A stretch of DNA of 27,068 nucleotides, from IMG/VR virus record IMGVR_UViG_3300034064_000117, positions 1-27,068 of that record. One strand, given 5' to 3'. The position numbers were made by a program, and so were the translations under genes. Below are positions 3,915-25,688 of this stretch, piece after piece. Source of the DNA: a virus. Numbering within the stretch: position 1 is the first letter of the stretch; every line of letters begins with the position of its first letter. The notes under the pieces are model-generated. The model did not search any database and had not been told where the DNA came from. It worked only from the letters and a program-made list of their open reading frames with translations.

Positions 3915-6276
3915 CGACAGTTTCCCAACCGATAAGGTTCAGGTCTTTACCTGTCTCGCTTTCGAAGCGCATACGCAAGACTCTACCCTTACCTCTTATC
4001 TTTGTTCTAGCTACAATTGTATCATAAGGATAAGTAAAAGTCAAATCGTTTATATCTACGGTTGGGTAATTCACCATACGGTATAACTGGCTTGGAGTAC
4101 TCCAGCGAGAGCTATCAATAGAGAGATCCCACTTAACAGTAAGGAGACAGCTAGAGGGATAGTCTGCTACATACCCTTCACCAGCAGGAATAAAGTTCTC
4201 CTCTGTACGCCGCATATAACTTACGATGTACGGGACATTCTTCTTGAGCATAGCCGAACCGGAGAAGTCGTAGGCTGTCTCAGCGTAAGAGGAGTAATTA
4301 GCAGAACCCCAGTCAAGGAAATCCCTATCAGTAAAGTTAGCAACAGTTAGATATCCATTAGCCGTCCTTACGAAAAACTTCGTATCAGAGTTAACAGTAC
4401 TCGTAGATGAGATTGACTCGACAACGGTATTAGAACTAGCATCGATTACCTGATCTGCACCAACAAGAATATTATAGGCTACTTCACTAGAGCCAAGGCC
4501 AGACAGGTAGAAACCATTATAGAGGTATGGGCTAGTCCCTGTCGTATTAGAGATCTCCCAAGGGAAGAAAGCCTGAAGGTTAAGATCATAGATAAGGATC
4601 TTAGTTTTCTTGTTAGCAATTGTCTCTGTCTCACTAGAGTACATCCAGATGATACGCTTACCCAGTCTATCGAAGACAGCAGTAGCATCCTTCTTATTGT
4701 CAGAAGAAATCGCATCGTAGTAAGAACGGATGTTATCCGACATACTCGTAACGTAGGGAGTAGATTCTTTAATGGATACGGTGTAAATACCAGAGGTATC
4801 CCAGTAGACAGGAGAGTCTGCAACATTGATCAAGGTTCTCTTGCTAGAGATACCGAAGCTAGAGATCTTACTAACGTAGTACTCCGTAGCCTTAAAGACC
4901 TGATCGACACCACCGACAACCCATACACCGTTAGCAGCGAGGACATACAGGATAGAACCTGTCGTGAAGAGAGCTTGGATACTGGAAGCCTCAGGGATAA
5001 TAATGTATCCACCATCAGAGTCTACCAGACCGGGAGTATCTTCAGAGGTAGGATCTTCCTTCTGGTAGCAGATACCAAAGTCCTTCTCACTCTCAAGGGT
5101 CTTTGAGTAAAATATCTTACCACCGTTCTTACTCGAATCAAGACCAGCATACCAGACTCGACCAGCATACGGTGCAACAGAGTTGAACCTAGCAGTCTCA
5201 ACAATCGTTGTAAGATTGTTAATGCTAGAAGCAGAGGATCTATTCTGATTAAAGAAGTCCAGAATGAAGTGACCATTCGGAGCAAGGGTATTACCGTACT
5301 CAATCTTTAAGTACTGGTCGATATCCTGATCATTACTCGTATTCTTACCAGCCCACCAAGACTTGTTTCTAGGAGGGAAGTCTGCCCTTGTATTGTCCCA
5401 ATAGTCAAAGGCATTACCAGACCTACCATTATTATCTGAGTACCATCCCTGATTAAAGAGATCGTAGAGATAATTATTCGTAATTGCAGTCGGGGGAGTC
5501 TCAGGTGCTACATCTTTAATAGCTAGACCAGATGCTGCTGTATTAGTAAAGTTAGCACCAGCAAGTGTATAGGTCATAGTCGTGCTAGTCGGAGCACCAA
5601 CAAGAGTAAACGTACCGTTAAACTGGAAGATACTAGAATCAATCTCTACAGTATCACCAGCATTATAATAGTGTGGTGTATTAACTGTAACAGTAACAAG
5701 GTTACTCGTTCTAGAGATAAACGTAATATTCGAGGACATCCCAAGATATTCAAGATCTCTAATCTGGATCTTGATCTTACTTACTGTAATGTTGTCCTCG
5801 TTAGGAATGTACTCTACACGGATAGGATCGATAGCCGGGGATACAATGATTAGATACCCAGTAACAGAAGCCGTATTAATATAAGAGCTAGAGACAGAGT
5901 AGCTGTTATTAGCAGAGTAATTATTCAGATCAATGCTGAAAGACTTCTGACCAGCAGAGATAGTGTCAAGAGACTTATCGTAGAAGTAGACCATGTTGTT
6001 ATGCTGAACAACAAGGAACTCAGTACCACCGATACCCGACACGTTTGTCCAAGTCTCATTGTGGACAAGATCACCAGCGGCTACAGCAAAGGTACTGTTC
6101 TGATAGTTATCTTCGTAGGCAATGCCTCTTCTTCTACGTCTAGTCCCGTCAATAAGAAGATCAAAGTTTAGTTCGTCTGAAGAAGTATTCTCAGGATAGG
6201 TCATCACAGAGGCTTCAGTATAAAGCCCCTTAATAAAAGTATTTACAGTTTTTTGACTATACTGCTGTGGTGCCAC
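3892..6276 (-). CDS. Tail tubular protein B (nozzle, gp12-like)
   Basis: This 794-residue protein forms the end of the short tail through which DNA leaves. The family N-terminus is clear: NTFIKGLYTEASVMTYPEN (residues 12-30), then DELNFDL and RRRRRGIAYE (about 46-55), the signature that opens T7 gp12-type nozzle proteins. The rest is beta-rich with many Ser/Thr/Tyr/Asn, as expected of a beta-propeller nozzle, and the length matches the family (about 790-800). The gene follows a 111-aa protein with a 20-base overlap and overlaps the GNAT gene at its end. Its partner is tail tubular protein A, two genes upstream. Confidence 0.93.
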   Translation of the reverse strand: MAPQQYSQKTVNTFIKGLYTEASVMTYPENTSSDELNFDLLIDGTRRRRRGIAYEDNYQNSTFAVAAGDLVHNETWTNVSGIGGTEFLVVQHNNMVYFYDKSLDTISAGQKSFSIDLNNYSANNSYSVSSSYINTASVTGYLIIVSPAIDPIRVEYIPNEDNITVSKIKIQIRDLEYLGMSSNITFISRTSNLVTVTVNTPHYYNAGDTVEIDSSIFQFNGTFTLVGAPTSTTMTYTLAGANFTNTAASGLAIKDVAPETPPTAITNNYLYDLFNQGWYSDNNGRSGNAFDYWDNTRADFPPRNKSWWAGKNTSNDQDIDQYLKIEYGNTLAPNGHFILDFFNQNRSSASSINNLTTIVETARFNSVAPYAGRVWYAGLDSSKNGGKIFYSKTLESEKDFGICYQKEDPTSEDTPGLVDSDGGYIIIPEASSIQALFTTGSILYVLAANGVWVVGGVDQVFKATEYYVSKISSFGISSKRTLINVADSPVYWDTSGIYTVSIKESTPYVTSMSDNIRSYYDAISSDNKKDATAVFDRLGKRIIWMYSSETETIANKKTKILIYDLNLQAFFPWEISNTTGTSPYLYNGFYLSGLGSSEVAYNILVGADQVIDASSNTVVESISSTSTVNSDTKFFVRTANGYLTVANFTDRDFLDWGSANYSSYAETAYDFSGSAMLKKNVPYIVSYMRRTEENFIPAGEGYVADYPSSCLLTVKWDLSIDSSRWSTPSQLYRMVNYPTVDINDLTFTYPYDTIVARTKIRGKGRVLRMRFESETGKDLNLIGWETVDASNTSY

Positions 6277-6592
6277 TCTTCTTTTCCTTTAGTTTCGGAG
6301 GAGGAGCCTTTTCCTCACCGAACATCCTATCCCACTTAGCTTCCCTACTTTCAGGTGTATGAACCAACCAGTAAGTCAAATCAGCTAGGGCTGTCTTTCT
6401 ATTTGTGTAATAACCAGAGAGATGCTCAGGCATACTGCCACTCTCGGACTTAATCTTAAACATACTATAGCCATCGGTAGGCTTATAAATAGTAAACATA
6501 GACTTTCTTTTAGAGGTAGTTACATTAAGAATTGTACCCTCTTTATTCTCTTCAGTTACGATAAGGTCAGTATCGTTTTCTACCATAGTCAT
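6257..6592 (-). CDS. Small protein between tail tubular genes, unknown function
   Basis: This 111-residue protein starts MTMVENDTDLIV at an ATG at 6592 preceded by AAAGGGTGCTCA. A longer reading from 6685 would run 119 bases into the tail tubular A gene and lacks this ribosome site, so the shorter start is chosen. The protein is hydrophilic and ends in a Lys/Pro-rich tail (APPPKLKEKKSGT). It overlaps tail tubular A by 26 bases and tail tubular B by 20, typical of real genes in this block. The N-terminal strands and the central segment TDGYSMFKIKSESG do not point to a family I recognise. Its place suggests a tail assembly factor or minor tail component (inference). Confidence 0.6.
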   Translation of the reverse strand: MTMVENDTDLIVTEENKEGTILNVTTSKRKSMFTIYKPTDGYSMFKIKSESGSMPEHLSGYYTNRKTALADLTYWLVHTPESREAKWDRMFGEEKAPPPKLKEKKSGTTAV

Positions 6593-7325
6593 TGAGCACC
6601 CTTTGTTCTCCAGTCTTCCAGCGATTGTTCTTCTGGAAGTATCTGTGTTTTCTAGCAAACTGTTCTGTTTTGATGTCAGGGCCACCCTTAAACAAGGATT
6701 CAGCCCTAACCTTTACTTCAGCAAGGTAATAGGGAAAGATCGTATCATCCATGTCTGGGACAGCAGCGTCAGTCAGAGTGAATGTCGGAATCTTAATCCC
6801 TAGTACCATTGTCTTACTTGTCTGTAGCGTAGTATCTACAGAGCTTTTATAACTATCGAAGCAGAGATACCTGTCATCAAACGATGTATAATAGTCAGGC
6901 ATCTTACTGTTATCGATAGGGAGAGATATTCCTGATGTCGGATCTGTAACGATGATTATCTCGGATGAAGAGGTATCCCTCTTGACAATTCTCTGAATAA
7001 ATTCATCCGGTAAAAGATAATCGATAAGCTTGTAGTCAAGTTGCCCAGCCGTCTCAGATACATTATATCTCAACTCCTTAATCTCAGTGATGCTATCAGC
7101 ATCCATGAAGTTGGGACGAGCAGAGTTAGATAGACCAGTTACTGTCATCAACTCTGTATGTTCAGGAAGATCAACAGTAGTAATTACATCATAGTATACA
7201 CTCCTACAGACATTAGCTATTTGGGTTGCTTCTACTGTATCGGAAATGCTGTTAACCTCATCGGAGTCTAAATCATTCAGGACATCCTGAACAATCTCCA
7301 AGAGTGTCATTTTAATTGTTGCCAT
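6567..7325 (-). CDS. Tail tubular protein A (adaptor, gp11-like)
   Basis: This 252-residue protein forms the ring joining portal and nozzle. Its opening MTLLEIVQDVLNDLDSDEVN (residues 6-25), followed by SISDTVEATQIANVCRSVYYD, is the characteristic helical start of podovirus tail tubular A proteins, and later segments (FDDRYLCFDSYKSSVDTT; FPYYLAEVKVRAESLFKGG) also fit. It is slightly longer than T7 gp11. A GAGGT ribosome site lies 9 bases before the ATG. It precedes tail tubular B with one small gene between, and follows the head-fibre-like gene. Confidence 0.93.
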   Translation of the reverse strand: MATIKMTLLEIVQDVLNDLDSDEVNSISDTVEATQIANVCRSVYYDVITTVDLPEHTELMTVTGLSNSARPNFMDADSITEIKELRYNVSETAGQLDYKLIDYLLPDEFIQRIVKRDTSSSEIIIVTDPTSGISLPIDNSKMPDYYTSFDDRYLCFDSYKSSVDTTLQTSKTMVLGIKIPTFTLTDAAVPDMDDTIFPYYLAEVKVRAESLFKGGPDIKTEQFARKHRYFQKNNRWKTGEQRVLNDYGRKRY

Positions 7326-7345
7326 CTATTCGTACCTCATAGGTT

Positions 7346-7966
7346 TTATCTAGCCTTATGTACGCGGGCTGAGATTAGACCAATATTAATGATATTGGCA
7401 GTACCTGAATTAGCATCAAGATAAATTCTAGCACCATGAGACACCATATTAGATGTAACTGGGAATAGAGAAGACTCTGTAATAACCTGACCAGCACCCT
7501 TAATCAAGGATACCGTAGTTTCCCCAAGGAGTGTGCTATAAGTAGTACCGTCAGAAGAACCATAAAGAATAATGTCAAGAGAAGCTGGAGACCCAGAAAC
7601 AGAATAGATCTGAAAAGTCATTGTAATAGAATGGAGATCTCCCGCAGCAACAAACTGGAGAGTTTCAGTACTTAGGTTCATGAGACTGGAAGTCGTACCC
7701 GTAAGGGTAATCGGAATCTGAGATACAGTATCATCTGTCGTAAAGGGAAGGAGTACAGGTGAAGTGCTAACTGCTAGGGCTGTAGTCCCTACGTATGTCG
7801 TATTAGTATATTTACCCCAGCCTGTACCGGGGAATCTGTTAGCGTTAGTCCATGTACCAGAGCCACTACCATTAGCTAGATAAAGCTGGTTAGCTGAAGC
7901 CGTAGAGATACCCTTAGGCTCATGGAGGTTAGGATCTGTCAGACTTGAATGTTGTACGTTAGCCAT
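7346..7966 (-). CDS. Head-fibre/decoration-like structural protein
   Basis: This 206-residue protein opens with MANVQHSSLTDPNLHEPKG, a short N-terminal module I recognise from many phage structural proteins, often labelled head fibre, where it is thought to attach the protein to the particle. It is followed by a linker (YLANGSGSGTWTNANRF) and a beta-rich Ser/Thr/Gly domain to the C-terminus (about residues 60-200), as in a trimeric surface fibre. It is the first gene after the hairpin and promoter at 7998-8047, so it may be transcribed separately from the coat gene. A GGGGTG ribosome site precedes the ATG. A tail rather than head location is possible. Confidence 0.65.
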   Translation of the reverse strand: MANVQHSSLTDPNLHEPKGISTASANQLYLANGSGSGTWTNANRFPGTGWGKYTNTTYVGTTALAVSTSPVLLPFTTDDTVSQIPITLTGTTSSLMNLSTETLQFVAAGDLHSITMTFQIYSVSGSPASLDIILYGSSDGTTYSTLLGETTVSLIKGAGQVITESSLFPVTSNMVSHGARIYLDANSGTANIINIGLISARVHKAR

Positions 7967-7997
7967 CTATAGTTCACCCCGGAGGACCATTAGTATT

Positions 7998-8025
7998 ATT
8001 ATATCGATTCTTTCGAAGATGTCAA
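7998..8025 (-). promoter_or_regulatory. Consensus sigma70-type promoter before the tail genes
   Basis: On the minus strand, TTGACA (8025-8020) and TATAAT (8003-7998) are separated by 16 bases; both hexamers are perfect matches to the bacterial consensus. It points into the head-fibre-like and tail genes, with the expected transcript start about 25-30 bases before the ATG at 7966. It lies immediately downstream of the hairpin at 8026-8047. Confidence 0.8.
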
Positions 8026-8047
8026 GGGGGAACCCTAAGGCTCCCCC
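8026..8047 (-). terminator. GC-rich hairpin after the coat and decoration genes
   Basis: Read on the minus strand, GGGGGAGCC and GGTTCCCCC can pair around a TTAG loop: five G-C pairs, A-T, one G-T, two C-G. It begins 10 bases after the decoration gene ends. There is no long T run (only TTGACATCTT follows), so if it terminates transcription it is probably partial, or it may protect the 3' end of an abundant coat message. Its position compares with the terminator after the coat gene in T7. Confidence 0.55.
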
Positions 8048-8057
8048 AAGAGTAGCA

Positions 8058-8522
8058 TTAGAGTTCGATGTACTCGATCACGAGTCTACCACGGCCAGAC
8101 GATACAGTACCGCCAGTCGAAGTGTAAACGTAACCATTAGCAGCACCGATACCAACAGTACCGCCAGCCAGAGCACCATCGCACTTAACGACAGCAGTTG
8201 CGACAAGCGTAGCCTGTGCCACAGCAGCATCGATACCGTCAGCATCAATAACCGTGCCATCCTTCTGGGCCAGACCAATAGTCAGGGTACCCGAAGAACC
8301 ACCCATCGCAGTAATCACAATGAGTGTAGCAGACTTAATGTACGCACCAGCGGGAATGAAAGCTTCATGCCCATCAGCCGCAGCCGTAATTGCAGTAGCA
8401 AAGTCAAAGTCCACAATAAGGTTCTTTACAGCACCCAATGTAGACAGACCAGCGCCTGTCTGACCCGCTTCCGGGTTCTTAAAACGGACTTCAAGTCCGT
8501 CAGAGTTGTTCCAATCAGCCAT
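8058..8522 (-). CDS. Probable capsid decoration protein
   Basis: This 154-residue protein starts MADWNNSDGLEVRF and is Ala/Gly/Thr/Val-rich and beta-predicted (AGAYIKSATLIVITAMGGSS, SGTLTIGLAQKDG, GRGRLVIEYIEL). It follows the coat gene after 15 bases with a near-perfect AGGAGG ribosome site, so it should be made in large amounts. Small beta proteins directly behind the coat gene in podoviruses commonly decorate the capsid surface; that role is inferred from position and composition. The hairpin and promoter that follow would let coat plus decoration be expressed apart from the tail genes. Confidence 0.65.
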   Translation of the reverse strand: MADWNNSDGLEVRFKNPEAGQTGAGLSTLGAVKNLIVDFDFATAITAAADGHEAFIPAGAYIKSATLIVITAMGGSSGTLTIGLAQKDGTVIDADGIDAAVAQATLVATAVVKCDGALAGGTVGIGAANGYVYTSTGGTVSSGRGRLVIEYIEL

Positions 8523-8537
8523 ATTAATATCCTCCTA

Positions 8538-9479
8538 TTAAACCGAGGCGTTCGAAAGAACGGTAACAAGGTTCTCCGGACGATAGAGCTTGACACCATA
8601 ACGAGCGGTAGTAACAAACTCTGTACGCTGGAAGTCCTTATTGTATTCAGTATCGACCTCAGGCATCTGTCTCCAAGCACCAATGAACGGAACAACCGAA
8701 GCATCAGCAGAGAAGAACAGGTTAGCCTTGAAGCCAGCGCAGCTAACAGTCTCAAGCGTTTCCGAAGAGATTGTAGCCAGACGCTGCGAGGTATAGACAT
8801 CGAAGCCGTAGACGTTACGGACGAAGCGCATACCAGTCGCGATACCCGAAGAGACAATACCCTCGAACATCGGGTTGTTATTAATGCCGACAAGCTGAGT
8901 AGCCGTCTCAATGGTGTAAGCCACAGAGGGGTCCACAATAGCGACACGGTTATTAGCCGAGACATTCGCAAGGTTCAGCGAGAGGTTAGCACGGGCGAAG
9001 TCAGCCACGTTAATGACGTTGCTAGAACCAGTAGCGACATAACGATGCTTACCACCGTTAATCGTATTGGTATTAGCAGCCGTCTGCTGAGACTGAAGAC
9101 CAAGGATAGCCTCCTCGACATGCTCCATGATAGCCCGCTCTTGCTCGGGCACAAAGCGCGAGACAAGCTCGTTCATGTAGAACATATCCTGTTCAGCCTT
9201 CTTCGTCACGTATGTACCCGAAGAGAGGTACTCAGTGATCTGGAAGGTGAACTGACCAGTGTCGAGAGGACGGTACTTAACCGCTTCGTCTTCAGCGTAG
9301 TCATCAACGTACGCCTGACCAATCGACGGGATCTTAAACGTATCGCCGTCAGGGAACTCCTGAAGCCAGCGAACGTAGGTCTGAGCCATAAGCTCATCAC
9401 GCAGAATCTCCTTAAGCTCACGCGACCAAACTTCAGCGCGAGTAAGGAGAGAAACATTACCAGTTGTCATACCCGACAT
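8538..9479 (-). CDS. Major capsid protein (HK97-fold)
   Basis: This 313-residue protein has an N-terminal helix (VWSRELKEILRDELMAQTYV), an extended arm-like region (DTGQFTFQITEYLSSGTYVT), a spine helix rich in Glu (ELVSRFVPEQERAIMEHVEE) and the A-domain strands typical of coat proteins (RVAIVDPSVAYTI; GMRFVRNVYGFDVYTSQR). It lies between scaffold and decoration protein in standard head-gene order. The start at 9479 has AAGGAG 8 bases upstream. The sequence is somewhat richer in GC than the tail genes, as often seen for highly expressed genes. The long opposite-strand open frame here is a by-product of codon bias. Confidence 0.9.
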   Translation of the reverse strand: MSGMTTGNVSLLTRAEVWSRELKEILRDELMAQTYVRWLQEFPDGDTFKIPSIGQAYVDDYAEDEAVKYRPLDTGQFTFQITEYLSSGTYVTKKAEQDMFYMNELVSRFVPEQERAIMEHVEEAILGLQSQQTAANTNTINGGKHRYVATGSSNVINVADFARANLSLNLANVSANNRVAIVDPSVAYTIETATQLVGINNNPMFEGIVSSGIATGMRFVRNVYGFDVYTSQRLATISSETLETVSCAGFKANLFFSADASVVPFIGAWRQMPEVDTEYNKDFQRTEFVTTARYGVKLYRPENLVTVLSNASV

Positions 9480-9502
9480 ATCTGATTCTCCTTTATATTA
9501 TG

Positions 9503-10264
9503 TTAAGAGTTGTAGAAACGATCCCCTAGTCTTTCACGATCCTGAAGCATAGTGTTCTGGATCTTAGGGGAATAGTACAAACTCCGGTTCTCCTTACGCA
9601 TCTTCTGATAGTATTCGAAGGTACGGTCCTGAGAATAAGAGTTGAAGTTCTCACTACGAATTGTTGACTGGGTAGTAACACCAGTGGAAGTACTAGTCTT
9701 CTCACCCATCTTCTTAACTCCAATCAACTGAAAGAATGCTGTAGGGGATTCGGCTGCAATTTCCTTAAGCCTGTCAAGAGACATATTAAGCTCCAGACTC
9801 TTAGCCTTTAGGACATCCGCAGTCTTATCACCGTACTGCTTCTGCATCTCTTCTCCAACTACGGAGATATTCTGAGAGGCAGTCTTACTCTTTTCCTTCG
9901 CAGTAATCACTTTTTCTACAAGGGCTTCAAAGTCACTCGCGCTCTGAGTGGTGTTCTCAGTATTAGAGGAACTGGTTGTTACCGGAGGAGGCTGTTCTGC
10001 ACCAGTCTCAGAACCCTTGCTCATCTGTTCAAGGAGGTTCTTAGCATAGTCCTGCTTTGCAAGTTCTGCCCGAAGTTCGTCAAGCGTCTTAGTGATTTCA
10101 CCAATGTGCCTATCGGCTTCAAGCTTCCCCTTAGCAAGGGCTTCGATATCCTTAAACTTCTTGCCATCTCCTACCAAATGATCTACAAAAGACTCTTTTG
10201 TCTGGGTCTGCTGCGTCTCATTTGTCGTACCTTCCGTGGTCGCGGAACTAAAAATGTCGCTCAT
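9503..10264 (-). CDS. Capsid scaffolding protein
   Basis: This 253-residue acidic, helical protein has few hydrophobic residues and a Ser/Thr/Glu-rich middle. It starts MSDIFSSATTEGT, and residues 23-60 (KESFVDHLVGDGKKFKDIEA) match the opening common to podovirus scaffolds. Residues about 65-85 and 115-180 are likely coiled coil, and the C-terminus (MLQDRERLGDRFYNS) is basic, as needed to bind the inner coat surface. It lies directly upstream of the coat gene, with AGAGGT as ribosome site. It would guide procapsid assembly and then leave or be degraded. Confidence 0.87.
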   Translation of the reverse strand: MSDIFSSATTEGTTNETQQTQTKESFVDHLVGDGKKFKDIEALAKGKLEADRHIGEITKTLDELRAELAKQDYAKNLLEQMSKGSETGAEQPPPVTTSSSNTENTTQSASDFEALVEKVITAKEKSKTASQNISVVGEEMQKQYGDKTADVLKAKSLELNMSLDRLKEIAAESPTAFFQLIGVKKMGEKTSTSTGVTTQSTIRSENFNSYSQDRTFEYYQKMRKENRSLYYSPKIQNTMLQDRERLGDRFYNS

Positions 10265-10267
10265 TTG

Positions 10268-10513
10268 TTATTTTACCTCTTGGTCTAGGTGTAAGATATT
10301 AATAATTTCTGTTAAAGCCCTGTTGTAACCATTGCGGTCTGCTTGCTTATAAGCCCAACTAGGACTATCGTAATCATTAGCGATTACAATCTCTTTAATC
10401 TTGCTGTTGACAATCTGCTCAAGCTTATCTAGGACATTCTTAGCAGACTTGACTTCCTTCTTAAAACCTTCCTGTTCGTCTTTAGGAAGGTCCATAAACC
10501 AGATAGTCTTCAT
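10268..10513 (-). CDS. Small conserved phage protein between portal and scaffold
   Basis: This 81-residue hydrophilic protein is helix-rich. Its core SPSWAYKQADRNGYNRALTEI resembles a short protein often found in podovirus head clusters, but no function is established to my knowledge. It starts inside the portal stop codon (TAATG) with GAAGGAAT upstream and ends 3 bases before the scaffold start, so the three are probably translated together. The DLPKDEQEGFKKEVKSAKNV segment would form an amphipathic helix. A head-assembly accessory role is only a guess from context. Confidence 0.65.
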   Translation of the reverse strand: MKTIWFMDLPKDEQEGFKKEVKSAKNVLDKLEQIVNSKIKEIVIANDYDSPSWAYKQADRNGYNRALTEIINILHLDQEVK

Positions 10514-20482: not shown

Positions 20483-20950
20483 TTAATACCTCAAGGAATA
20501 AGTGTTATCAGTAAAGTCTGTCGCAAAGACACTAGACTCAATTGTATTCGGTGTAAGACCAGTCAACTGTTCCGCTCCTGTAGCATTCTTAATCGTGTAG
20601 TCGTTAGTGAGGAAGTCAATGCTCATGCCAACCCAGTCATTATATAGGAGAAGTTCAGAAGAGGTTAGGAGACCAAACATATTCGTAGCACCCGTACTGG
20701 CATACAAACCAGTATAAGTCGTAAGACTGTTCTGGGTTACACCTCTTAGTGCACCACACGGATGGTATCTGCCAAGACCAGCACTATCGATGCAGACGTT
20801 AACTGATCCATCAGGTGCGTAAAGACCAGTAAAAGAAGTACCGGGAACAAGAGTAACTCGCATAGCCCCAGATGCAGCGTAAAGACCCCTGCTTACTGAG
20901 GTATCGTTTACGACTACATTAATAGCACCTGATATAGCATAGAGGGGCAT
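20483..20950 (-). CDS. GLYA-repeat structural protein, first gene of the late block
   Basis: This 155-residue protein has about five repeats of roughly 20 residues in its first half: PLYAISGAINV, GLYAASGAMRV, GLYAPDGSVNV, RYHPCGALRGV and GLYASTGATNM. The repeat is known from phage structural proteins associated with fibres, but its role is unclear; it looks like a beta-solenoid. The non-repeat C-terminus (residues 85-155) includes LLLYNDWVGMSIDFLTNDY. An AAAAGGTAG ribosome site lies before the ATG, about 155 bases downstream of the nearer tandem promoter. As first gene it should be expressed strongly. Confidence 0.7.
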   Translation of the reverse strand: MPLYAISGAINVVVNDTSVSRGLYAASGAMRVTLVPGTSFTGLYAPDGSVNVCIDSAGLGRYHPCGALRGVTQNSLTTYTGLYASTGATNMFGLLTSSELLLYNDWVGMSIDFLTNDYTIKNATGAEQLTGLTPNTIESSVFATDFTDNTYSLRY

Positions 20951-21112
20951 CGGCTACCTTTTAGTGGAGACACAAAAGAAAGATTAAGAATGGTTATACT
21001 ATTGGTTTAACTTATGGTAGAAGAAACCTTTAGAGATAACCTATAAGTATTTTATTACCAAAAGCTAGGACTAGTCTAACTAAAGCTTAATCCCCCGGTT
21101 TAACATATGGTT

Positions 21113-21141
21113 ATTATAACATATGCTGTATCGGGAGTCAA
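21113..21141 (-). promoter_or_regulatory. Late-block promoter, proximal of tandem pair
   Basis: On the minus strand, TTGACT (21141-21136), a 17-base spacer, then TATAAT (21118-21113): 11 of 12 bases match the sigma70 consensus. The expected transcript start is near 21106, giving a leader of about 155 bases before the ATG at 20950. A GGTTTAAC motif (plus-strand reading, 21097-21104) lies just past the start. Confidence 0.8.
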
Positions 21142-21144
21142 TAC

Positions 21145-21173
21145 ATTATTGGTATTCCCCCGCCTCCAGTCAA
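21145..21173 (-). promoter_or_regulatory. Late-block promoter, distal of tandem pair
   Basis: TTGACT (21173-21168), a 17-base spacer and AATAAT (21150-21145) give 10 of 12 consensus matches. It lies 32 bases upstream of the proximal promoter and points the same way; its spacer contains a GGCGGGGG run. Confidence 0.65.
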
Positions 21174-21362
21174 TAATAAATATAAATAAAAGACTAGTGT
21201 GATATTAATACCACAGTGTACATCCCTTACTTAGGGGTAGACCCGATTGCTGGGAATTTCTTCTAGAAAATTTCATGGTGTGATTAAGGGGGATAGGAGG
21301 TAGTCAAACCCCCGCCCACCCGTTTAACCCTATGCTAGGACTTTATTCCCAAGGGGAAGCCC

Positions 21363-21568
21363 TAGGAATATATTCACATGGTAGGACACTAGGAATTTAT
21401 CCCTACGGATTTCCTAGGACTACATACCTAGCATGTGACTAATAGCAGTTAGGAATCATTGTGTTGTCAAGATAATTGTTTTGAGGAATATCAATGGGTT
21501 AGACCGAAAGGGGATAGGAATAAATCTACTCCATACTCCTGGGCAATCTGTCAGAAATGTATAGGAAT
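21363..21568 (+). repeat. Dispersed TAGGAAT repeats
   Basis: TAGGAAT starts at 21363, 21390, 21450, 21515 and 21562; the last two share ATAGGAATAAA. TAGGAC occurs at 21066, 21336, 21382 and 21415 nearby. The density is far above what 7-base words should give in this length. They could be binding sites for a replication initiator, regulator or packaging enzyme. Confidence 0.6.
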
Positions 21569-21696
21569 AAACATATTCCCAGTGTAGGATCGATAGGTCA
21601 AATAATACACTACCAATTCAGTAGAGATCTAACCCTTTGATATCACAGGGAAAGAGCTATGCATTCCAGGCATACGGCTATGCACTGTTAGCACCC

Positions 21697-21724
21697 TTGA
21701 CAGGATTCTTGTACCACCTATGGT
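21697..21724 (+). promoter_or_regulatory. Rightward promoter for the first plus-strand gene
   Basis: TTGACA (21697-21702, perfect), a 16-base spacer and TATGGT (21719-21724, 4 of 6). A start near 21731 would give a leader of about 185 bases that includes the inverted repeat and the palindrome before the ATG at 21916. Confidence 0.5.
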
Positions 21725-21762
21725 GATGGCTCTACCTGCTGATTCACATTGTAAATGACTTA

Positions 21763-21829
21763 ACAACCCCAAACGGGACGGGCGCGAGCTATGCCTATAC
21801 CGTAACGGTCTGACACACCTAGGGGTTGT
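21763..21829 (+). repeat. Long-range inverted repeat in the leader
   Basis: ACAACCCC (21763-21770) and GGGGTTGT (21822-21829) are perfect complements 51 bases apart, and the space between contains a small hairpin ACCGTAACGGT. In RNA this would close a multi-helix element. Upstream, GCTATGC recurs at 21656 and 21677, and again inside at 21788. A regulatory leader is possible; no known riboswitch class is recognised. Confidence 0.4.
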
Positions 21830-21851
21830 CTAAGCTGGTCCCTCAGTTTTC

Positions 21852-21870
21852 CGTTTTCCCATGTGGGAAA
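21852..21870. repeat. Palindrome-containing 19-bp repeat, copy 1
   Basis: CGTTTTCCCATGTGGGAAA is identical to the copy at 22504-22522. Within it TTTCCCA and TGGGAAA form perfect 7-bp arms around TG (21855-21870). It lies 45 bases before the ATG of the gene at 21916. It may be an operator, an RNA hairpin or a recombination site. Confidence 0.75.
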
Positions 21871-21915
21871 CTGGGGGACTAGCTCATTAGTCCAATCAAC
21901 TGGAAAGTAAAAATT

Positions 21916-22419
21916 ATGTCTATCAACTATATCAAAGCAGCTAATGAAATCGCCAAACTCTACGTTGCTCAAGGTAATGGCCTGATCCAACTCTCAGACA
22001 AGCTGTTGCATGCTCTTAGGGAAGCTGAGAGCAACGGCACAGATGTAAACATGGTTTGGGCAAGCATCGCCCGCACGAATAACTGGAGTGACCGTGACGC
22101 TGGCCTTGACGGAAACCCGATGCCAAAGACACTGGCAAACTATCGGTCCCTCTCACGGAAGGCCATTCAGCTTGCCGTAGGCCATAACTACTCGGACCAC
22201 GCAGCATGGAAGAAAGCGATTGCCCATGCGAACAAGTTGTCTAAGTCTCAGGAAGCGGAGGAAACGCCACGTATCCCCTCAGTTGACCTAAACGAAATGG
22301 AAATGCCCTCTTACGTCGAGCACATCATTAAAAAGCGTTTGTCTATGACAGAAAAGAATATCAAAACCTTTGATAGTGTTATCATCAAAGCAATCGAAAA
22401 GTTTATGGAAGTTGCCTAA
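21916..22419 (+). CDS. Monocistronic first gene of the plus block, candidate regulator
   Basis: This 167-residue protein starts MSINYIKAANEIAKLYVAQG and is helical throughout: LSDKLLHALREAESNGTDVN, then NWSDRD, TLANYRSLSRKAIQLAVGHN, and a linker before KKRLSMTEKNIKTFDSVIIK. I recognise no family. Arg/Lys-rich helices in the middle are compatible with DNA binding but no clear helix-turn-helix is seen. It has its own promoter region, GGAAAG ribosome site and strong terminator, and identical palindromes lie before and behind it. It is GC-richer than its neighbours (34/60 at 22081-22140 against 26/60 at 23101-23160). This setting suggests an autoregulated control protein or a recently gained gene. 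Confidence 0.75.
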   Translation: MSINYIKAANEIAKLYVAQGNGLIQLSDKLLHALREAESNGTDVNMVWASIARTNNWSDRDAGLDGNPMPKTLANYRSLSRKAIQLAVGHNYSDHAAWKKAIAHANKLSKSQEAEETPRIPSVDLNEMEMPSYVEHIIKKRLSMTEKNIKTFDSVIIKAIEKFMEVA

Positions 22420-22444
22420 CTCACGTAGTAAGTAGAAACACCAA

Positions 22445-22474
22445 GGGGTCATCCGAAAGGATGGCCTCTTTTTT
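22445..22474 (+). terminator. Rho-independent terminator
   Basis: GGGGTCATCC and GGATGGCCTC pair over 10 positions (two G-T pairs) around a GAAA tetraloop, followed by six T. It ends the transcript of the gene at 21916-22419, 25 bases after its stop. Confidence 0.92.
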
Positions 22475-22491
22475 CGTGCCTAATTCTAGAA

Positions 22492-22497
22492 TATAAT
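22492..22497 (+). promoter_or_regulatory. Possible -10 element for the small-gene operon
   Basis: A perfect TATAAT lies between the terminator and the second palindrome. The -35 position holds only a T run, so alone it would be weak or need an activator. A start near 22504 would coincide with the palindrome, as for a repressor site. Confidence 0.4.
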
Positions 22498-22503
22498 CCT
22501 ACT

Positions 22504-22522
22504 CGTTTTCCCATGTGGGAAA
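22504..22522. repeat. Palindrome-containing 19-bp repeat, copy 2
   Basis: It is identical over 19 bases to 21852-21870 and carries the same TTTCCCA/TGGGAAA arms (22507-22522). It lies just downstream of the TATAAT and upstream of a nine-T tract (22533-22541) and the small-gene operon. Confidence 0.75.
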
Positions 22523-22579
22523 TCAGTTCTTCTTTTTTTTTAATTGTCTAGAAGGTAGCTAAGGTAAAGAGGTGTCCAA

Positions 22580-24008: not shown

Positions 24009-24295
24009 GTGACTCGTTTATCCGGTACAGTAAGAGCAGGGGTGAGGCGACTTCCTATGTGGGAAGCGATGCCACTACACTCTATCGTGTCAACATGATC
24101 AAGGTTAGCATCAAGCTATGGATGAAGACTGGTATGATGCCAACTAGAGGGGTCACAATTAGTAAGTTACTCAAGATGGCAGAGCAATACACTGGTAGGA
24201 AGTATAAGAAGTCTGAGGCTGCTTATGCAGTAGAGGATCTGCACAACTGGGTTACGACTATGATATCAGCACTACCAATCGAGGAGGTTGATTAA
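24005..24295 (+). CDS. Small unknown protein, helical
   Basis: This 96-residue protein starts MSDSFIRYSKSRGEATSYVG. The ATG at 24005 overlaps the previous TGA; an ATG at 23975 would lie inside the neighbour. The basic helical middle (VSIKLWMKTGMMPTRGVTIS, then KLLKMAEQYTGRKYKKSEAA) suggests nucleic-acid or protein binding, and the C-terminus is AVEDLHNWVTTMISALPIEE. An imperfect copy of the palindrome lies in its 5' end (24051-24066, 13 of 16 bases). It is TAATG-linked to the next gene. Confidence 0.6.
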   Translation: MSDSFIRYSKSRGEATSYVGSDATTLYRVNMIKVSIKLWMKTGMMPTRGVTISKLLKMAEQYTGRKYKKSEAAYAVEDLHNWVTTMISALPIEEVD

Positions 24296-25382: not shown

Positions 25383-25688
25383 ATGGCTAAGGTAAACCAC
25401 AGTCAAGAAACTATTGATATAATCTGCACCCTTCGCAAGCAAGGGTTGTCATGTGAGAAGATCAGTAAGCATACTGGTCTGACGAAGAACGTAGTCCTTG
25501 CCCTCGTCTATAAACACTACCTTAAAATCGACAGGCACGTACGCTACAGCCGCAAGGATGACCATGATGGTAGGGATGTACCCTATACAGACAAACGCCC
25601 GTCAGTGCCCTTCGTTAAGGGTTTAAAGCATACTCGCTATTACGTAGTACATATCGCAGATAAGGAGATCGACAATGCTGTTCGTTAA
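25383..25688 (+). CDS. Helix-turn-helix DNA-binding protein
   Basis: This 101-residue protein has an N-terminal HTH-like segment at about residues 7-47: ETIDIICTLRKQGLSCEKIS then KHTGLTKNVVLALVYKHY, with the GLSCEKISKHTGLTKN turn typical of resolvase- or sigma-region-4-like HTH. The rest is basic (HVRYSRKDDHDGRDV). It would bind DNA as a small regulator. It follows the GP88-like gene by three bases and overlaps the next start by 14 bases. Its target could be the repeated palindromes or GGTTTAAC motifs, but this is only a suggestion. Confidence 0.6.
   Translation: MAKVNHSQETIDIICTLRKQGLSCEKISKHTGLTKNVVLALVYKHYLKIDRHVRYSRKDDHDGRDVPYTDKRPSVPFVKGLKHTRYYVVHIADKEIDNAVR

Follow-up and report, generated by a model that had tools for sequence, protein, structure and literature searches.

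The early region of the phage genome considered here raises the question of why a single small gene should be bracketed by two identical, palindrome-containing repeats. The window (the whole stretch of DNA analysed, 27,068 bases) is an IMG/VR virus contig, IMGVR_UViG_3300034064_000117; its terminase is 74% identical to that of Lentibacter phage ICBM1 (Zobellviridae, Cobavirinae), and the phage is a Zobellviridae/Cobavirinae-like podovirus. Its structural genes run leftward, starting at 20950, and a divergent gap of approximately 965 bp (20951-21915) separates them from the bracketed gene, R167, which is the first rightward gene of the window and is followed by a rightward cluster of small genes. 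Early regulation in Zobellviridae/cobaviruses appears to be little studied: promoters go unmentioned in the cobavirus genome paper (PMC6775973), and a literature search for early promoters of cobaviruses returned nothing useful. The features of the locus are as follows.

21113-21141, minus strand: promoter directed leftward, TTGACT-17-TATAAT with a TG ahead of the -10, strong in the promoter scan; counterparts at L052 993-964 and L064 3433-3405; the structural genes are probably transcribed from it.
21697-21724, plus strand: P1, sigma70-like promoter TTGACA-16-TATGGT (10 of 12 matches in the scan), predicted start at about 21731.
21833-21884, plus strand: predicted leader hairpin of 22 pairs with an 8-nt loop, enclosing the upstream palindrome (RNA fold -35.5 kcal/mol, z -7.6).
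21852-21870, no strand assigned: upstream palindrome, putative operator, core 21855-21870 TTTCCCA-TG-TGGGAAA; also in L035, L036 (one degenerate arm), L038, L052 and L064.
21916-22419, plus strand: R167, early protein of 167 aa, putative palindrome-binding regulator.
22443-22476, plus strand: intrinsic terminator of R167, a 12-pair stem and T run; equivalents in L052 and L064.
22492-22497, plus strand: TATAAT hexamer.
22504-22522, no strand assigned: downstream palindrome, putative operator, core 22507-22522; downstream of R167 in every lineage.
22533-22541, plus strand: T tract directly past the downstream palindrome, shared by most lineages in the alignment.
24051-24066, no strand assigned: in-gene copy CTTCCTATGTGGGAAG, possible third site, an exact match to the family motif TTCCYAYRTRGGAA.

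The two 19-bp copies of CGTTTTCCCATGTGGGAAA were confirmed to lie exactly at 21852-21870 and 22504-22522, where a sequence-only reading of this DNA had placed them, and they constitute the sole exact repeat of at least 15 bp within the window. Order-1 Markov shuffles of the window produced a mean of 0.12 repeated 16-mers (maximum of 4 in one shuffle) and, with up to three mismatches allowed, the 16-mer matched five places in the window versus 0.21 expected. Palindromes with 7-bp arms are commonplace (10 in the window vs 8.7 in shuffles); the non-random part is the exact repetition flanking one gene, not palindromy itself. The description of a single bracketed gene with its own ribosome site and strong terminator was also upheld (gene at 21916-22419, ribosome site GGAAAG, terminator at 22443-22470). 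The claim that this gene is GC-richer than its neighbours was not: R167 has a GC content of 47.0% against 44.8% for the window, and 24% of equal-sized stretches are as rich or richer.

Searches of IMG/VR with the palindrome, R167 and the neighbouring genes recovered R167 homologues from eight other contigs, all metagenomic and representing only about six lineages, with identities of 52-100% (L035, 100%; L036/L037, 99%; L038/L039, 95%; L017, 63%, its contig starting inside the gene; L052, 54%; L064, 52%). The gene has the same position and orientation in all of these relatives. The linkage of gene and repeats held throughout: in every R167 contig that shows both flanks, the gene has one site upstream and another downstream, at a spacing of 647-676 bp, with the upstream site of L036 (TTCCCACGTGGGAT) counted by allowing one mismatch. 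The flanking half-sites are all TTCCCA/TGGGAA in the window group and TTCCTA/TAGGAA in four of four of L052 and three of four of L064, so that the half-sites at both ends of R167 have changed in parallel. The palindrome invariably has a pyrimidine-purine step at its centre, with A..T on the outside and no fixed orientation (TG, CA, CG); this A-YR-T centre would fit a flexible DNA dyad, and in an RNA hairpin the A-T could not pair. With one mismatch allowed, the family motif TTCCYA-YR-TRGGAA occurs two to four times per R167 lineage, always near R167, with three occurrences in the whole window; contig G005 (46,964 bp) has exactly two sites. Among the 84 IMG/VR contigs retrieved by exact palindrome searches, site pairs less than 1.5 kb apart were confined to contigs encoding R167; the remaining 26 or so contigs with the exact 16-mer had no paired sites and were unlinked to R167, a number estimated to be about chance level. 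The palindrome is absent from the Cobavirinae references ICBM1, P12053L and CRP-5, and R167 is absent from the Cobavirinae reference genomes.

The imperfect copy earlier reported inside a gene at 24051-24066 does exist, fits the family motif exactly, and may represent a third site. It is present in the window, L035, L036, L052 and L064 and lost in L038 and L017; its right half (TGGG or TAGG) tracks the site class, and a conserved peptide, TSYVG, partly accounts for it. As a separate observation, two paralogous early genes of L017 contain perfect in-gene palindromes at 1099 and 1735 (SHVGKPL), where relatives encode other residues.

A natural exchange of the locus is preserved in L064 and G011. 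The two contigs are 99.9% identical over L064 1-3739 and 99.8% identical over 5971-10327, and the mismatches in this right-hand part all fall towards its left end, none beyond about 6063; the exchanged block of about 2.3 kb has junctions at approximately 3739 and 6063 of L064. All three L064 sites, including one within the TSYVG-coding gene, lie inside the block. R167 is absent from G011, no TTCCYANNTRGGAA occurs across its 43 kb, and its TSYVG-coding gene has the TSYVGR peptide intact with the palindrome gone. The slot of R167 as first early gene is occupied in G011 by a phrog_1448 protein (L133, encoded on the minus strand from about position 47 and running down over the start of the contig), a swap partner at this position. 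R167 and its sites have been swapped as a module, apparently by homologous recombination; as gene and sites are linked, the swap reveals a co-inherited module and says nothing on the identity of the binder. The loss of the module from G011 might also be expected if the gene were a mobile cassette and the direct repeats the scars of its insertion, the second of two readings offered from the sequence alone. However, the gene shows ordinary GC and no sign of a mobile element, is placed and oriented alike in every relative, and was exchanged at junctions that do not coincide with the flanking palindromes, while the parallel change of both sites argues against a cassette and against chance repeats alike. 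What survives of the cassette idea is the swapping of the module; as insertion scars or chance repeats, the palindromes are largely refuted and hardly credible.

R167 is under strong purifying selection: in comparisons with the window, dN/dS is about 0.02-0.04. A basic character marks both the conserved core of the protein, W-S-I-A-x-T-N-x-W-x-D-R-D-A-G-L...P-M-P-K-T-L-A-N-Y-R-S, and residues 44-114, for which the calculated pI is 10.0. Structure prediction of the 167-aa protein, as suggested by the sequence-only reading, gave an all-helical model of moderate confidence (pLDDT ~75), in which no known DNA-binding fold was recognised. No matching family or fold was found in Pfam, PHROGs, PDB sequences or a PDB fold search (the fold matches being noise), and family searches gave no HTH match. 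That these searches recognised neither an HTH nor any other DNA-binding family, and gave no confident structural match in the PDB, counts against a DNA-binding regulator. Searches by tblastn gave no match below E 7 among annotated phages and none among bacterial genomes. A viral-structure search with R167 led to ORF59 of Pseudomonas phage PPpW-3, and profile comparison (hhalign) of R167 with the ORF59 family (92.9% probability, E 3.7e-7, 148 columns) supports remote homology to this uncharacterised family. Members include MR5 gp06 and others, and the ORF59-like gene of the Krylovirinae phages MR5 and pphageB21 is found close to the left end of the genome. Further tblastn searches, with PPpW-3 ORF59 against plasmids and with its family against bacterial genomes, returned nothing useful. 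No flanking repeated palindromes were found around the ORF59-like genes of Pseudomonas phages, a point against an R167 regulator with cognate sites, and hence the palindromic sites belong to the R167 branch. A likeness to ParB/parS was considered and rejected: a remote homologue matched a ParB PHROG at only E 0.15, and comparison with a ParB-like protein of a phage gave no genuine alignment. Within R167, position 53 is R in proteins associated with TTCCCA-type sites and S or A in those of the TTCCTA type; as R53 is one of 21 class-correlated positions, all confounded by phylogeny, its role as a specificity residue is hypothetical.

The explanation proposed, with somewhat more belief than doubt, is that R167 is an early autoregulator exchanged as a unit with its cognate operators. 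This retains the other of the two original readings, since gene and sites are kept and lost together down to about 52% identity and the half-sites change in parallel; binding by R167 itself is the conditional part. R167 is most likely a DNA-binding protein of an undescribed family. Probably as a dimer, it would bind the palindrome TTCCYA-YR-TRGGAA on DNA, with the two flanking sites serving as its cognate operators, often joined by a third within the early operon. Once bound, R167 would shut off or block its own leader and gene together with the following early genes, and the outcome would be a brief burst of early expression. Gene and sites constitute one module swapped by recombination, as in lambdoid immunity regions.

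The organization of the leader bears on how such repression might occur. P1 has a counterpart in L052 (TTGACA-16-TATGTT) with the same 16-nt spacing, and its TTGACA is kept in L035 and L038. Simple occlusion of the promoter is unlikely because the upstream palindrome does not cover P1 but follows it at a distance of about 130 nt. The second copy had been proposed to sit at the start point of the TATAAT at 22492-22497, an argument weakened by the lack of a matching -35 in the scan and by the absence of the hexamer from L017, L052 and L064. With the upstream site so far past P1 and no conserved promoter at the second site, the preferred mode of repression would be a roadblock, both within the leader and where the next unit begins.

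The same leader hairpin was found in L036, L038, L052 and L064 (z of -5.7 to -7.2 against shuffles). Across the five sequences, its outer stem has two double (compensatory) changes in addition to wobble changes, and the largely different outer stem of L064 has 13 of 15 positions paired. As the upstream site is also contained within this covarying hairpin, control at the level of RNA is the main rival of a DNA autoregulator: R167 would bind the leader hairpin and a small hairpin past the terminator in the transcript, and either block its own translation or antiterminate into the early operon by an N-like logic. The strong terminator after R167 is consistent with antitermination, as is the finding of no plus-strand sigma70-like promoter from R167 to 25446, although the consensus scanned was of the E. 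coli type, which alphaproteobacterial promoters may escape. In four of the five folded leaders, however, just one arm of the palindrome takes part in the predicted fold and no separate palindrome hairpin forms, so that palindrome and hairpin look like a duplex-DNA dyad and an RNA structure superimposed on each other. Moreover, the downstream palindrome is without the outer stem and folds weakly as RNA, and the conserved central A-YR-T dyad, free in its orientation, suits duplex DNA. Action through RNA is considered unlikely. A search of Rfam with the leader returned only a chance-level match to mir-3204 (E 0.72).

Another protein might bind the palindromes, either one from the host or the 101-aa HTH protein that the phage encodes at 25383-25688, which has regulator-like matches where R167 has none. 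The HTH protein is a poor candidate because its gene region is identical in L064 and G011, yet only L064 has sites. A host factor would leave unexplained both the confinement of the sites to the flanks of R167 and the parallel change in site class along the R167 tree, and binding by either protein is regarded as improbable. The palindromes could instead mark sites of cutting or replication if the divergent gap represented the fused ends of a cobavirus genome. Direct terminal repeats and T7-like packaging have been reported for cobaviruses (PMC6775973) and, by synteny, the 172-bp terminal repeats of ICBM1 fall in this gap. Nonetheless, ICBM1, P12053L and CRP-5 do not have such a palindrome, G011 is near genome size with overlapping ends yet lacks the sites, and sites occur within genes too, all of which renders a genome-end signal very improbable. 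The contig ends of G005 overlap by 3.1 kb at 97% and those of G011 (43,231 bp) by 199 bp with one mismatch; because of these overlaps, both look near-complete, with genomes of about 43-44 kb.

In lambdoid phages, the immunity region carries cI/rex between OL and OR, exists in heterologous classes, and is exchanged as a block. The autoregulator envisaged for R167 resembles this arrangement in the palindrome shared by the two flanks of the gene, the specificity classes and the block exchange. It differs in the single bracketed gene, the lack of any HTH found in R167, and an upstream site in a transcribed leader hairpin well past the promoter. Lambdoid operators overlap the promoters they control; as to such overlap here, the upstream site follows P1 by about 130 nt and the TATAAT near the downstream site is not conserved. 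The R167 phages also differ in having no detectable tyrosine integrase: PF00589 was not found in G000, G005, G011 or G012, of which all but G005 and G011 are fragments, and for this reason a role for R167 as a lysogeny repressor is unlikely. The stoperators of Cluster A mycobacteriophages are asymmetric 13-mers, bound by monomers and numbering more than 20 per genome (PMC9283540); like these, the R167 sites lie away from promoters, some in the path of transcription, but they are palindromes, two to four in number and restricted to the early region. The anti-CRISPR-associated (Aca) autorepressors, described as HTH proteins (PMC8434428, PMC9410906), share with R167 the character, putative in its case, of a small early phage regulator with inverted-repeat operators beside its own gene, whereas R167 matches no HTH family and sits alone between its own leader and terminator.

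A broader proposal is speculative and clearly less likely than not: R167 and the PPpW-3 ORF59 family may be new non-HTH, sequence-specific phage regulators, and phages without a tyrosine integrase may carry an exchangeable, immunity-like early region in which protein and operator specificities (the TTCCCA and TTCCTA classes) co-evolve. Such regulators would perhaps act on leader RNA as well as on DNA and hold back superinfecting relatives that belong to their own class. If R167 is a regulator, it would offer a first functional lead for a protein family shared with Pseudomonas phages, including the T7-like Krylovirinae. The locus supplies a candidate regulator together with its sites, which fall into two specificity classes, and a pair of phages between which the gene was naturally exchanged, so that binding, specificity and function are directly testable.

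Two further observations concern the divergent gap. Multiple imperfect copies of a CCTAGGAATWTATYCC-like motif lie between 21330 and 21570, and also occur in L052; these are possibly the sites of another regulator. A long-range inverted repeat, ATATCAATGGGTTAGA at 21487-21504 and TCTAACCCTTTGATAT at 21626-21643, is kept with base changes in L026, which suggests more RNA structure in the gap.
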